From Phycisphaerales bacterium (GTDB lineage: Bacteria > Planctomycetota > Phycisphaerae > Phycisphaerales > SM1A02): a stretch of DNA of 37,629 nt. Below, piece after piece: positions 15,847 through 19,562 of the stretch (its first letter is position 1; each line of letters starts with the position of its first letter). Both the position numbers and the translations under genes were made by a program. A model generated the notes under the pieces. The model was not told the origin of the DNA. It made no database searches and saw nothing but the letters and a program-made list of their open reading frames with translations. The stretch is taken from NCBI GenBank assembly GCA_028823105.1, contig JAPKCC010000022.1, positions 1 to 37,629 on the forward strand, read 5' to 3'.

Positions 15847-16686
15847 ATGTCAAATCCAGTCGAACTCTTCGGATATCCGGTGCTTGGGCGGCTTGGTGAC
15901 GGAGCCGCCAGCACCATCTATCGAATTCGAAATCCGCAATCAGGCGAGGAACATGCGCTCAAGCATGTTGTGAAGCGCGGTGAGAAGGACCAGCGATTCA
16001 TCGACCAGCTCGTCGACGAACAGCGGATCGGGGCCCGATTGAGTCATACGTCGATTCGCCGCATCGGCAGGTTGCTTCGGAAGCGTCGCAAGTTTCGGGT
16101 CGCGGAAGTGGGATTGATCATGGAGTATGTGGATGCTCCCGGCCTCGACACGATGCAAGGGAAGACTCTTCTGGAGAACATCCGGATCTTCACCCGCATC
16201 GCGGAAGGCCTCCACTCGATGCACCAGGCAGGCATCGTCCATACGGACATCAAGCCCACGAACGTGCTGGTCGACGACTCCGTCGTGAAGATCATCGATC
16301 TCGGCCAGGCGTGTCCGATCGGGACGACGAAGGGCCGAATTCAAGGTACTCCGGGGTACATCGCGCCGGAACAGGCGCATCGCCGTCGCATCACCGAGCG
16401 AACCGACGTCTACAATCTCGGCGCGACCATGCATTGGGTGTTGTCCGGGAAGCTGATTCCCACCGCGCTGCCACCGAGGGGCTCGGAAAGCAACCTCGCG
16501 ACCGGCCCGTTGGGGCCTGATCGCATCGCGCCGCCCACCCCACTCTCAAAACTGATTCCGGGCACACCGGTCGAGATGTCGGATCTGGTCCTGGATTGCG
16601 TTCGGGTTTCCAGAGGCGATCGCCCCTCCACCATGATCCCGGTGATCGACCGACTTCTTCGGATCGATCGAATGTTGGCGGACTGA
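15847..16686 (+). CDS. Small soluble Hanks-type Ser/Thr protein kinase, non-RD
   Basis: The 279-residue protein is almost entirely a kinase domain with no membrane helix, PASTA or WD extension, unlike most planctomycete kinases. The Gly loop GRLGDGAAST is at about 14-23 and the ATP-anchoring Lys39 in HALKHV. The catalytic loop HTDIKPTN (132-139) keeps Asp134 and Asn139 but has Thr instead of Arg, making it a non-RD kinase. The metal-binding motif is DLG (151-153) instead of DFG. GTPGYIAPEQ holds the APE motif. These residues allow catalysis, so it is probably active rather than a pseudokinase. It sits in the rex plus-strand run, 42 bp before the HAD phosphatase and about 1.3 kb from the FHA-sigma gene. 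Confidence 0.92.
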   Translation: MSNPVELFGYPVLGRLGDGAASTIYRIRNPQSGEEHALKHVVKRGEKDQRFIDQLVDEQRIGARLSHTSIRRIGRLLRKRRKFRVAEVGLIMEYVDAPGLDTMQGKTLLENIRIFTRIAEGLHSMHQAGIVHTDIKPTNVLVDDSVVKIIDLGQACPIGTTKGRIQGTPGYIAPEQAHRRRITERTDVYNLGATMHWVLSGKLIPTALPPRGSESNLATGPLGPDRIAPPTPLSKLIPGTPVEMSDLVLDCVRVSRGDRPSTMIPVIDRLLRIDRMLAD

Positions 16687-16727: not shown

Positions 16728-17408
16728 ATGCCGGTGAGATTTAGCAACATTCTGATCGACCTCGACGGAACGCTTGTGGATTCGATCGACGGTCTGCACG
16801 CCGCCTGTCTGGCGGCTGCGGAGACCATAAAACGACCGCCACCCGATCTCGAGTTCGTCCGCCGGAGCATCGGACGAGGCTCGGATCGACTCCTTCATCT
16901 CGTTCTTCGGGGCGATGCGGAATCAATGCTTGAGCCTGACCTGCATCAACGGGCCCGCGCGGCCTTCGACCGTCACTATGCGTCAGCCTGCCTTGGGGGA
17001 TCGCACCTTCGCGTGGGTGTGGCGGAGAGTCTGAGGGAACTTCGTGCCGAAGGCCGCCGTCTCGTGGTGGCGACCAACAAGCCTCGCCGGCCGGCGGAGC
17101 TCGTCCTGCGGCATCTCGGTCTCGATGATTTGACCGACGGGCTCTGTTGTCCCGAGGATGCGGGGTGCCTCAAGCCCGACCCAGAGTTCGTAACCGCCGC
17201 GGTGGGAAATCCCGATCGGAGCGGCGTCATGCTGGTGGGTGATTCCGGGGTCGATGCGGCGACGGCGGATGCCGCATCAATTCCATTCATCGCGGTGCGT
17301 GGCGGCTATGACGAGGGAAGGGACATCGCGACACGAACGCCTTCGCCCTCGGTGGTGATCGAAACGCCAGAGGGTCTCCCAACCGCGATTCGCGCCCTCG
17401 AGAACTGA
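16728..17408 (+). CDS. HAD-family phosphatase (phosphoglycolate phosphatase-like)
   Basis: The 226-residue protein is a subfamily-I HAD hydrolase. Motif I is IDLDGTLVDS (about 9-18, nucleophile Asp10). Motif II is the Thr in VVATNKP and motif III the Lys in CLKPDPEF. Motif IV, MLVGDSGVDAATA, supplies the metal-binding acidic residues. An alpha-helical cap lies between motifs I and II. The set matches Gph-type phosphatases, which remove phosphate from 2-phosphoglycolate, but substrate specificity cannot be proven. The ATG at 16728 places motif I at the expected distance; the longer frame from 16596 overlaps the kinase gene. It is the last gene of the plus-strand run. Confidence 0.88.
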   Translation: MPVRFSNILIDLDGTLVDSIDGLHAACLAAAETIKRPPPDLEFVRRSIGRGSDRLLHLVLRGDAESMLEPDLHQRARAAFDRHYASACLGGSHLRVGVAESLRELRAEGRRLVVATNKPRRPAELVLRHLGLDDLTDGLCCPEDAGCLKPDPEFVTAAVGNPDRSGVMLVGDSGVDAATADAASIPFIAVRGGYDEGRDIATRTPSPSVVIETPEGLPTAIRALEN

Positions 17409-17506: not shown

Positions 17507-17971
17507 TCAGCCGGCCTGACGATCTTCCGAGCGTTCGGTCGGCAATTCGGACACCAGCAACATCGGCTGGCCACAGAAAAGGTCGAAGGTCGTCTCGTCG
17601 AGGAGCGAATTCATCGCCTGTTCGACTCGGCCAATCCGGTCTGAAAGGTCGTCCGGGACCGAGACCCCGCAGATTTCACTGCCGACGAATGCGACCCGAC
17701 TGCTTTCTGGTCGTTCGAAAAGCAACCAGACGTCACGAAGGCTGATCTCATTGGGATTCTTGGCGAGGGCGTATCCGCCGCCGGGTCCTGGGGAGCCGCT
17801 GACGATGCCGGCCTGGCTCAAGGAAGAGAGCAACTTCGCCACGAATGGACGTTGGAGCCCGCGGCCATCCGCAATGTCTGCGGCAGAGACGCGTCGTGTC
17901 GCGGGGCCTTCCCAGAGCGCGGCGAGGTAACTCACGGCGGCGATGGCGGTTTCTGTTTGCTTTCCGTACAT
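17507..17971 (-). CDS. Rrf2-family transcriptional regulator lacking the Fe-S cysteines
   Basis: The 154-residue protein has the Rrf2 winged helix: YLAALWEGPATRRVSAADIA, LQRPFVAKLLSSLSQAGIV, the glycine-rich wing PGPGGGYALAKNP and EISLRDVWLLF. Family members such as IscR, NsrR and RsrR bind an Fe-S cluster with three Cys in a C-x5-C-x5/7-C region after residue 90. Here only Cys101 is present in that region (EICGVSVPDD), with Cys133 far away, so cluster binding looks lost or altered. It is divergent from the FHA-sigma gene, with the two starts only 58 bp apart, so it may regulate that gene; this is inference from position. Its own terminator is at 17424-17460. Confidence 0.85.
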   Translation of the reverse strand: MYGKQTETAIAAVSYLAALWEGPATRRVSAADIADGRGLQRPFVAKLLSSLSQAGIVSGSPGPGGGYALAKNPNEISLRDVWLLFERPESSRVAFVGSEICGVSVPDDLSDRIGRVEQAMNSLLDETTFDLFCGQPMLLVSELPTERSEDRQAG

Positions 17972-17987: not shown

Positions 17988-17994
17988 AGGAGGT
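17988..17994 (+). promoter_or_regulatory. Strong Shine-Dalgarno upstream of the FHA-sigma gene
   Basis: AGGAGGT on the plus strand precedes the FHA-sigma gene. The first in-frame ATG (18030) is 35 nt away, too far for normal spacing, while an in-frame CTG at 18006 is 11 nt away. This suggests either a CTG start or a start I have placed too far downstream. Confidence 0.5.
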
Positions 17995-18029
17995 ATCAAC
18001 CAACACTGGGAATCGCAGAAGTCGAACAC

Positions 18030-19088
18030 ATGGATTCAATTCTGCCGATGATGAGCGAGTGGGTGGGGCTTGATTCGTATCTGAAAACGGTCTCTGGAGC
18101 ACTCAAGATGGTCCCGAAGGTCTCTGGCATCGAACTGATCCTCCAAGACGGGTCCCGCTTGATCGGGACGCCCGGTTCGGAGCCTGAGGCAGACATCGTG
18201 GTCGGTCGGTCTTCCGACTCCGGAATTCGACTCGAAGGCGATTCCATCAGTCGCCAGCATGCCTCTCTTCGATCCGATACGTCAGGTCGTTGGTTTGTTC
18301 GCGACCTTGGGAGCCGAGGCGGAACGTCCCTGAACTGGATTCGACTCGACGAATCGGAGGAGCCGCGGGTTCGGACCGGCGACCGACTTCGATTCGGCGA
18401 TACAAACGTTGTCGTCGACCTCCCCGGAGGGGACGGGCAGGATGGAGAAAAAGAGCAAAATCTCAGGATTGAAGCCACCGCAGAGACCCGTCAGGACGAG
18501 TTTCGGACTCGGGGGAGTCTGCTGCTCCGGTTGAACGCCTCCGGAACGATGGAACGGGAGATCGGCTGGACGGATTTCTATGATCGATATGTCCCGCTGA
18601 TCAAGGGATTTGCGCAGCGGGCGGGTGCGAAGGCGGAGGAGGCGGAAGACGTGGCTCACGAGGTGATCGCCAATTTCTTCAGGGCCGCTCATCGATTCCA
18701 ATATGACGCCAGTGCCGGGCGGTTCCGCGGCTACCTCAAGGCCGCGACCCTCAATGCGATGCGGGCCAGATGGCGGAAGCGGAAGGGGCAGGTCAACGTC
18801 GAGGACGAATCATCGCTTCCGGCGGCGGATTCCAATGAATTGGATGCGGTCTGGGATCAGGAGTGGACGCGATCCGTGATTGATCGGGCGATCGTCGCGG
18901 TCCGGATGAACGGCAAGCAGAGCGAGCAATCCTGGGAGGCATTCGATCTCTTTGGTCGTCGAGGGGTGCCGATCAGCGAGATCTCGAGTCGACTCGGCAT
19001 GACCCCCGAGGCGATTCGCCAGGCGAAGAGTCGAATTTCCAGACAGATCCGCGGGGAGATCGAACGCATTCGATCTGAAGAGGGCTGA
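18030..19088 (+). CDS. FHA domain fused to an ECF-type sigma factor
   Basis: The 352-residue protein joins a phosphothreonine-binding FHA domain to an ECF RNA polymerase sigma factor. FHA (about 33-131): DIVVGRSSDS with Gly59-Arg60, ISRQHASL with Ser74-Arg75-x-His77, and GSRGGTSLN with Asn102 are the canonical phosphopeptide-binding residues. An acidic linker (about 132-175) follows. Sigma region 2 (about 178-252) contains TDFYDRYVPLIKGFAQRAGA, AEDVAHEVIANFF and RFRGYLKAATLNAMRARWRK. Region 4 (about 280-345) contains SWEAFDLFGRRGVPISEISS and LGMTPEAIRQAKSRISRQIR. There is no anti-sigma gene beside it. I infer that Thr phosphorylation of a partner, perhaps the kinase at 15847-16686, is read by the FHA domain to control sigma activity. 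The start is uncertain (ATG 18030, or CTG 18006 behind AGGAGGT). Confidence 0.9.
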   Translation: MDSILPMMSEWVGLDSYLKTVSGALKMVPKVSGIELILQDGSRLIGTPGSEPEADIVVGRSSDSGIRLEGDSISRQHASLRSDTSGRWFVRDLGSRGGTSLNWIRLDESEEPRVRTGDRLRFGDTNVVVDLPGGDGQDGEKEQNLRIEATAETRQDEFRTRGSLLLRLNASGTMEREIGWTDFYDRYVPLIKGFAQRAGAKAEEAEDVAHEVIANFFRAAHRFQYDASAGRFRGYLKAATLNAMRARWRKRKGQVNVEDESSLPAADSNELDAVWDQEWTRSVIDRAIVAVRMNGKQSEQSWEAFDLFGRRGVPISEISSRLGMTPEAIRQAKSRISRQIRGEIERIRSEEG

Positions 19089-19094
19089 GTCCGG

Positions 19095-19562
19095 TCAACC
19101 CCTTCGGTCGAGTTCGAGGAACTCCACGCCAGCTTCATCGAAGACCGTCCGGCTTTTCTCGATCGATTCCAGCCAGTGCGCATCACCATGGTCCGATTGA
19201 TCCGGCTGGTACGTGACCACGGTGGTGATCCCCGCCTGAACCAACGCAATCGCGCAGTTGACGCAAGGGAAGAACGATGAGTAGACCGCGCAATCGATCG
19301 GGCTCACGCCGTTCCGGGCGCACTGAATGATCGCGTTCATCTCGGCGTGCACGATGAGGTCGTACTTAGCAGGACGTTCGAGACGCTCGGGTCGATCCTC
19401 GACGCCTCGCGGCAGACCATTGAATCCGGTGGAGACCACCTGCTTGTTGGGCGAGACGATCACGGCGCCGACCCCTCGCGATGGATCCTTGCTCCACCCG
19501 GCGATTTGTTCCGCCAGAGCAAGGAATCTTCGATGCCATTTCTCACTGAACGGGACCGTCAT
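19095..19562 (-). CDS. Deoxycytidylate (dCMP) deaminase family protein
   Basis: The 155-residue protein belongs to the zinc-dependent cytidine/dCMP deaminase family, which makes dUMP from dCMP for dTTP synthesis. Zinc and catalytic motifs are intact: HAEMNAI (His and Glu) and FFPCVNCAIAL (the PCxxC pair). The early segment WSKDPSRGVGAVIVSPNKQV fits ComEB-type dCMP deaminases. The family's second structural zinc site is not obvious. I chose the ATG at 19562 (MTVPFSEKW) because it overlaps the stop of the GH29 fucosidase gene (ATGA). Co-expression of a nucleotide enzyme with a fucosidase looks accidental rather than functional. Confidence 0.88.
   Translation of the reverse strand: MTVPFSEKWHRRFLALAEQIAGWSKDPSRGVGAVIVSPNKQVVSTGFNGLPRGVEDRPERLERPAKYDLIVHAEMNAIIQCARNGVSPIDCAVYSSFFPCVNCAIALVQAGITTVVTYQPDQSDHGDAHWLESIEKSRTVFDEAGVEFLELDRRG

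Follow-up and report, generated by a model that had tools for sequence, protein, structure and literature searches.

Phosphorylation-Linked Sigma Factors and FHA Proteins

ECF sigma factors that act in a Ser/Thr kinase pathway without an anti-sigma factor have been described from group ECF43, in the pairs EcfP/PknT of Vibrio parahaemolyticus and EcfK/PknS of Xanthomonas; members of this group have neutral residues in the place of the acidic region-2.2 motif and regain the charge when they are phosphorylated (PMC8103513, PMC13147305). ECFs reported from Planctomycetes carry N-terminal regulatory extensions that take the place of the anti-sigma factor (PMC8103513). According to reviews, both the kinase-linked ECF groups and the N-terminal extensions are mechanistically unstudied (PMC8103513, PMC8999054). 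The planctomycete ECFs paired with kinases include ECF59, ECF61, ECF62 and ECF217, which are listed as phosphorylation-regulated.

Among proteins with an FHA domain, EmbR of Mycobacterium tuberculosis is a transcription regulator whose FHA domain mediates its interaction with, and its phosphorylation by, the kinase PknH (PMC6213207 and references therein). In GarA and OdhI, two small FHA proteins, the FHA surface is under the control of a Thr that becomes phosphorylated; these metabolic regulators have neither a sigma factor nor a DNA-binding part.

The gene considered here lies in a window (the whole stretch of DNA that was analyzed) of 37,629 nucleotides from a Phycisphaerales bacterium and joins an FHA domain to an ECF sigma factor in one polypeptide. 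It shares with the ECF43 systems the probable link to Ser/Thr kinases and the lack of an anti-sigma factor, but keeps the acidic motif and carries a reader domain, an extension that, as in other Planctomycetes, may stand in for the anti-sigma factor. EmbR differs from it in that its FHA domain is C-terminal and belongs to an OmpR-like DNA-binding activator, not to a sigma factor, while GarA and OdhI have an N-terminal phospho-Thr stretch that is not conserved in the fusion protein. A full-text literature search, the coverage of which did not include the ECF classification and the planctomycete survey so that absence from the literature is not established, returned no FHA-ECF fusion or FHA extension. 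Rhodopirellula baltica may have an unfused counterpart, as its FHA-domain protein RB1789 and its ECF sigma factor RB1790 bear consecutive locus numbers (PMC2754498).

Domain Composition and Start of the Gene

A single open frame (18030-19088) encodes an N-terminal FHA domain and a C-terminal ECF sigma factor, based on Pfam and NCBIfam searches (Table 1). The FHA match is well above the cut-off (E=4e-16, 59.5 bits vs 20.7), and that of sigma region 2 is above its own. Region 4 by itself scores 15.5 bits, below the Pfam cut-off of 24.1, yet the NCBIfam model TIGR02937 spans regions 2 to 4 (E=8e-16, 58.1 bits vs a cut-off of 42.9), and the sigma-2/sigma-4 pair claimed in the preliminary description, like the union of both domains in one frame, can be upheld. 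The presence of sigma-2 and sigma-4 without sigma-1.1 or sigma-3, together with the ECF model above its cut-off, places the protein among the ECF (group 4) sigma factors. No OmpR-type Pfam domain was detected in the fusion protein; its DNA-binding part is the sigma factor, so it is not a protein of the EmbR type. A profile built from the family matched solved FHA domains with its N-terminal part (1uht, E=5e-15; FhaA, GarA and OdhI; EmbR, E=7e-12) and the solved ECF sigma factors SigE, CnrH and RpoE with its C-terminal part. An AlphaFold model based on four sequences (the window protein and three relatives) reached a mean pLDDT of 54, too poor for judging domain contacts.

Table 1. Positions of the fusion gene, its domains and the neighboring features in the window.
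Feature	Position	Strand	Remarks
Ser/Thr kinase	15847..16686	+	PF00069; 279 aa, HTD (non-RD), no predicted membrane segment
HAD-family hydrolase	16728..17408	+	PF00702/PF13419; between kinase and Rrf2 gene
Rrf2-family regulator	17507..17971	-	PF02082; divergent from fusion; linkage kept in this genus and g298
AGGAGGT	17988..17994	+	Unconserved, in divergent intergenic region beside Rrf2 gene; probably not a ribosome-binding site
Non-coding block, Rrf2 to FHA-ECF	18009..18052	+	Near-identical in three congeners
GGAG, likely ribosome-binding site	18096..18099	+	8 nt before ATG 18108; kept in close congeners
FHA-ECF sigma factor gene	18108..19088	+	326 aa, revised start; Pfam/NCBIfam and congener alignment
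FHA domain	18195..18398	+	PF00498; G33 R34, S48xxH51, N76 of the 326-aa protein
Thr134	18507..18509	+	Just before sigma region 2; candidate phosphosite
Sigma-70 region 2	18576..18785	+	PF04542, E=3e-10, above cut-off; acidic region-2.2 motif E178-A-E-D181
Sigma-70 region 4	18960..19052	+	Weak alone; covered by TIGR02937
dCMP/cytidine deaminase	19095..19562	-	PF00383; convergent neighbor

The strong AGGAGGT upstream, with only a CTG at suitable spacing, had been put forward as a start-site puzzle. In the alignment of congeners the frame from 18030 to 18107 is not conserved: TTG or another codon replaces ATG 18030 in three congeners, and a 1-base indel disrupts the frame between 18030 and 18108. 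The three close congeners with an intact gene (85% identity) encode proteins of 326 aa whose first codon corresponds to ATG 18108, and the fusion proteins of three less closely related congeners have 328-329 aa. Because the upstream frame is unconserved and the congeners yield 326 aa from the same start, the gene extends from 18108 to 19088. A start at the CTG or at ATG 18030 served by the AGGAGGT was rejected on the same grounds, and the puzzle was an artefact of choosing the wrong start. The short block between the Rrf2 gene and the fusion is conserved as DNA despite the frame-breaking indel just downstream, which suggests a promoter or operator; it is a possible Rrf2 operator or autoregulated promoter. 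Such conservation was seen at the genus level only, as no promoter motif common to the genera was found upstream of the fusion.

Distribution and Origin of the Fusion

The fusion gene was found in all 8 genomes of the window genus. One of these copies (in G007, L037 8674-9650) has frameshifts and in-frame stops while the adjoining genes align intact, and it is either a decaying gene or a metagenome-assembly error. Within the Phycisphaerales family to which the window genome belongs, the family profile (E<=1e-40) matched 74 of 181 genomes; in 5 of these only the sigma part was matched, leaving about 69 of the 181 genomes, in about 15 genera, with the fusion (a few of these copies are cut by contig ends). 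Dozens of genomes have a fusion that covers the two domains, and an assembly error or chance read-through as its origin is rejected on that ground. When 392 genomes drawn across the phylum were searched, matches across both domains were confined to this family, a result that holds for this phylum and for a profile that would overlook an FHA domain joined to a very different sigma factor; outside the family the sigma part aligned alone, mostly from about position 134. The architecture is a conserved one in a family of marine Phycisphaerales bacteria, whose named relatives are metagenome assemblies such as Phycisphaera sp. TMED9.

In a tree of the sigma domain the 38 FHA-bearing proteins are gathered in one clade (SH-aLRT 96) that is nested within the FHA-less ECFs, and a kinase frame was present inside the 3.5-kb locus at 24 of 27 loci of FHA-less ECFs taken across the phylum. 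Taken together, the nesting and these kinases indicate that the parent group is that of the ECF sigma factors which planctomycetes encode beside Ser/Thr kinases, a placement that rests on the sigma tree and the neighbors rather than on ECF group models and assigns no ECFxx number. The topology suggests that the FHA domain was probably gained once. From the kinase-paired planctomycete ECFs the fusion differs by its extra N-terminal FHA domain and, in the window genus, by having no dedicated kinase next door.

A second, divergent FHA-ECF paralogue occurs in genera g305 and g19 (L116 11209-12564, L118 6931-7899 and L128 7752-8720), where it directly precedes a membrane kinase gene. These deep-branching copies retain the R, S and H of the FHA domain, and in two of the three, the two g305 copies, N76 is replaced by D.

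Conservation of the Phosphate-Contact Residues

The GR, SxxH and N residues reported for the FHA domain are each found in the protein and have been kept across the family: among 38 members G33, R34 and S48 are invariant (100%), H51 is kept in 97% and N76 in 90%, and in a ranking of 78 FHA columns by conservation these five positions take places 1, 2, 3, 6 and 11. The rest of the domain is divergent between family members. Retention of the contact residues in an otherwise divergent domain is what would be expected of a phosphothreonine-binding site that has been kept, and it is plausible that the FHA domain is a phosphothreonine reader.

Kinases and Other Genes Linked to the Fusion

The immediate neighbors of the fusion in the window encode an Rrf2 regulator, a HAD hydrolase and a dCMP deaminase, and the statement that no anti-sigma gene is adjacent stands. 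The small Ser/Thr kinase gene upstream is of the Hanks type, with HTD in place of HRD. Its position 1.3 kb from the fusion had been taken as evidence for gating, a point that does not survive comparison: the gene is family-wide, being found in 167 of 181 genomes with or without the fusion, and its closest homologues adjoin the fusion only in this genus and the sister genus g298 and have another genomic location in the rest, which makes a role as the cognate kinase improbable. These two genera share synteny over the entire stretch (MTHFR, Rex, amidase, kinase, HAD, Rrf2, fusion and deaminase), and the proximity of the kinase in the window is uninformative and almost certainly incidental. In kinase trees this 279-aa protein falls outside the groups linked to the fusion, and its role as a dedicated partner is not supported; the window genome has no dedicated kinase gene beside the fusion.

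Kinases are few, at 6 to 38 per genome. In 11 genomes of different genera, 7 of the 13 fusion copies have a kinase domain no more than 5 kb away, vs 0.78 expected (P ~3e-6), the expectation being derived from kinase density under random placement, which ignores a possible general clustering of signaling genes. In g50, g16, g14, g305 and g19 the fusion and a kinase gene follow one another on one strand, in either order, with a short gap or an overlap between them, and the second fusion copy of g19 is divergent from its kinase. In the adjacent kinases a membrane segment is predicted beyond the kinase domain and TPR repeats are frequent, and comparison of both trees shows that subclades of the fusion match local groups of kinases, including those of the paralogues L116, L118 and L128. 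Co-occurrence with a kinase is above chance in other genera, and the Rrf2 gene is kept beside the fusion in the window genus and g298.

No kinase is near the fusion in g5, g49, g306, the main copies of g8 and g305 and one copy of g7, and in g9 there is none within 9 kb. Smaller trees had hinted at a kinase class exclusive to the fusion, an idea that dissolved once kinases from seven genomes without the fusion were added: the fusion-linked kinases split into several branches of a family-wide radiation, and kinases of the same broad class are also present in genomes that lack the fusion, so there is no exclusive partner class. Among the eight kinases of the window genome, that encoded at C52:37165-37806 groups with kinases near the fusion in g16, g28 and g21 (support 99, and 92 in a larger tree), and its product is a candidate partner in trans. 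A second kinase, at C170:3401-4180, showed a fusion-linked grouping in one tree that was lost in the larger one; the C52 and C170 kinases (loci L139 and L142) are both large.

Other genes near the fusion vary with the lineage. The dCMP deaminase gene is linked to it in many genera, in varying orientation (L040, L041, L110-L112, L116-L120, L122, L123 and L129). In g49, g305 and g306 (L111, L112, L116-L120) the translation of the same-strand gene directly upstream resembles, by eye, the end of a sodium/solute symporter.

Possible Modes of Control

The preliminary description proposed a sigma factor gated by phospho-protein binding in place of anti-sigma release. In favor of this proposal are the invariant phosphate-contact residues, the membrane kinases that adjoin the fusion in other genera above chance and the intact acidic motif; the kinase of the window, on which it had leaned, no longer counts toward it. 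With no anti-sigma gene adjacent and EmbR as a precedent, docking and gating through the FHA domain is the best reading of the protein: an ECF sigma factor that carries its own phosphothreonine reader and would dock on a phosphorylated kinase or on the substrate of a kinase. We give this reading an even chance of being correct. In such a scheme the kinase, which in several genera would be the product of the neighboring gene, a single-pass membrane protein rich in TPR repeats at its far end, would phosphorylate itself or a substrate on threonine, and the FHA domain would then bind that phosphothreonine. Binding would either recruit the sigma factor for modification or release, or reposition sigma-2 and sigma-4, and would in this way govern, instead of an anti-sigma factor, how the protein gains access to core RNA polymerase. 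In the window genus, which has no adjacent dedicated kinase, the partner may be a kinase encoded elsewhere, such as that on C52. Against docking on a dedicated kinase stand the several lineages with no kinase nearby and the lack of an exclusive class of kinase partners.

Thr134 is kept in 38 of 38 FHA-bearing proteins and in 40 of 40 FHA-less relatives (L017-L030 and L055-L081 among the loci), and the kinase-paired planctomycete ECFs thus share with the fusion the same invariant Thr before sigma-2. By analogy with the N-terminal phosphothreonine of GarA and OdhI, a kinase might phosphorylate this residue and the protein's own FHA domain bind it, closing or opening the sigma factor. This cis switch, which we consider unlikely, would suit the invariance of Thr134 in all 78 aligned sequences, members without FHA included, and its location about 30 residues after the FHA domain. 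However, the residue is just as conserved where there is no FHA domain, so FHA binding cannot be the sole reason for its conservation, and it may be a helix cap; in addition, the length of the linker differs strongly between genera. Thr134 is therefore treated here as a strong candidate phosphosite or structural cap.

It is likewise doubtful, if conceivable, that the FHA domain reads a phosphorylated third protein of metabolic or structural function, so that the sigma factor would be sequestered or recruited as one output of a kinase network of global reach, with no kinase of its own. The many lineages without a nearby kinase would fit this arrangement, as would linked neighbors that change from lineage to lineage (the deaminase in many genera, the symporter-like gene in g305, g49 and g306), but the enrichment of adjacent kinases would be left unexplained.

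A broader and quite unlikely possibility is a phospho-switch common to the superfamily, in which the kinases paired with planctomycete ECFs would phosphorylate T134 and, in this Phycisphaerales lineage, the acquired FHA domain would read the mark in cis or between subunits, giving a phospho-gated sigma factor in one protein.

Descent from a kinase-paired ECF lineage could also suggest direct phospho-activation at region 2.2, by the mechanism of EcfP/PknT and ECF43, in which case the FHA domain would be an accessory. In ECF43 (EcfP/EcfK) neutral residues and a phosphorylatable Thr or Ser occupy this region, whereas the window protein has E-A-E-D, D181 is present in 38 of 38 FHA-bearing proteins, 37 of which have D or E at position 180; the acidic motif being intact, activation of this type was rejected and has, in our estimate, very little probability. 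A structural or dimerizing function of the FHA domain that involves no reading of phosphorylated residues, as might be argued from the untried function of most bacterial FHA domains and from the replacement of N76 by D in 3 of 39 rows, is most improbable given that the phosphate contacts stand out as the best conserved columns of a domain that is divergent elsewhere.

Significance

How planctomycete ECFs that have no anti-sigma factor are controlled is a question to which a lineage with its own phosphothreonine reader may give a direct handle. The ligand of the FHA domain would reveal the phosphorylated partner and the step at which control is exerted, and the invariant Thr134 offers one residue that may be mutated in FHA-bearing and FHA-less members alike. 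If the reading favored here is correct, the fusion would let protein kinases of these marine Phycisphaerales choose genes for expression by means of a built-in phosphate reader, not an anti-sigma factor.
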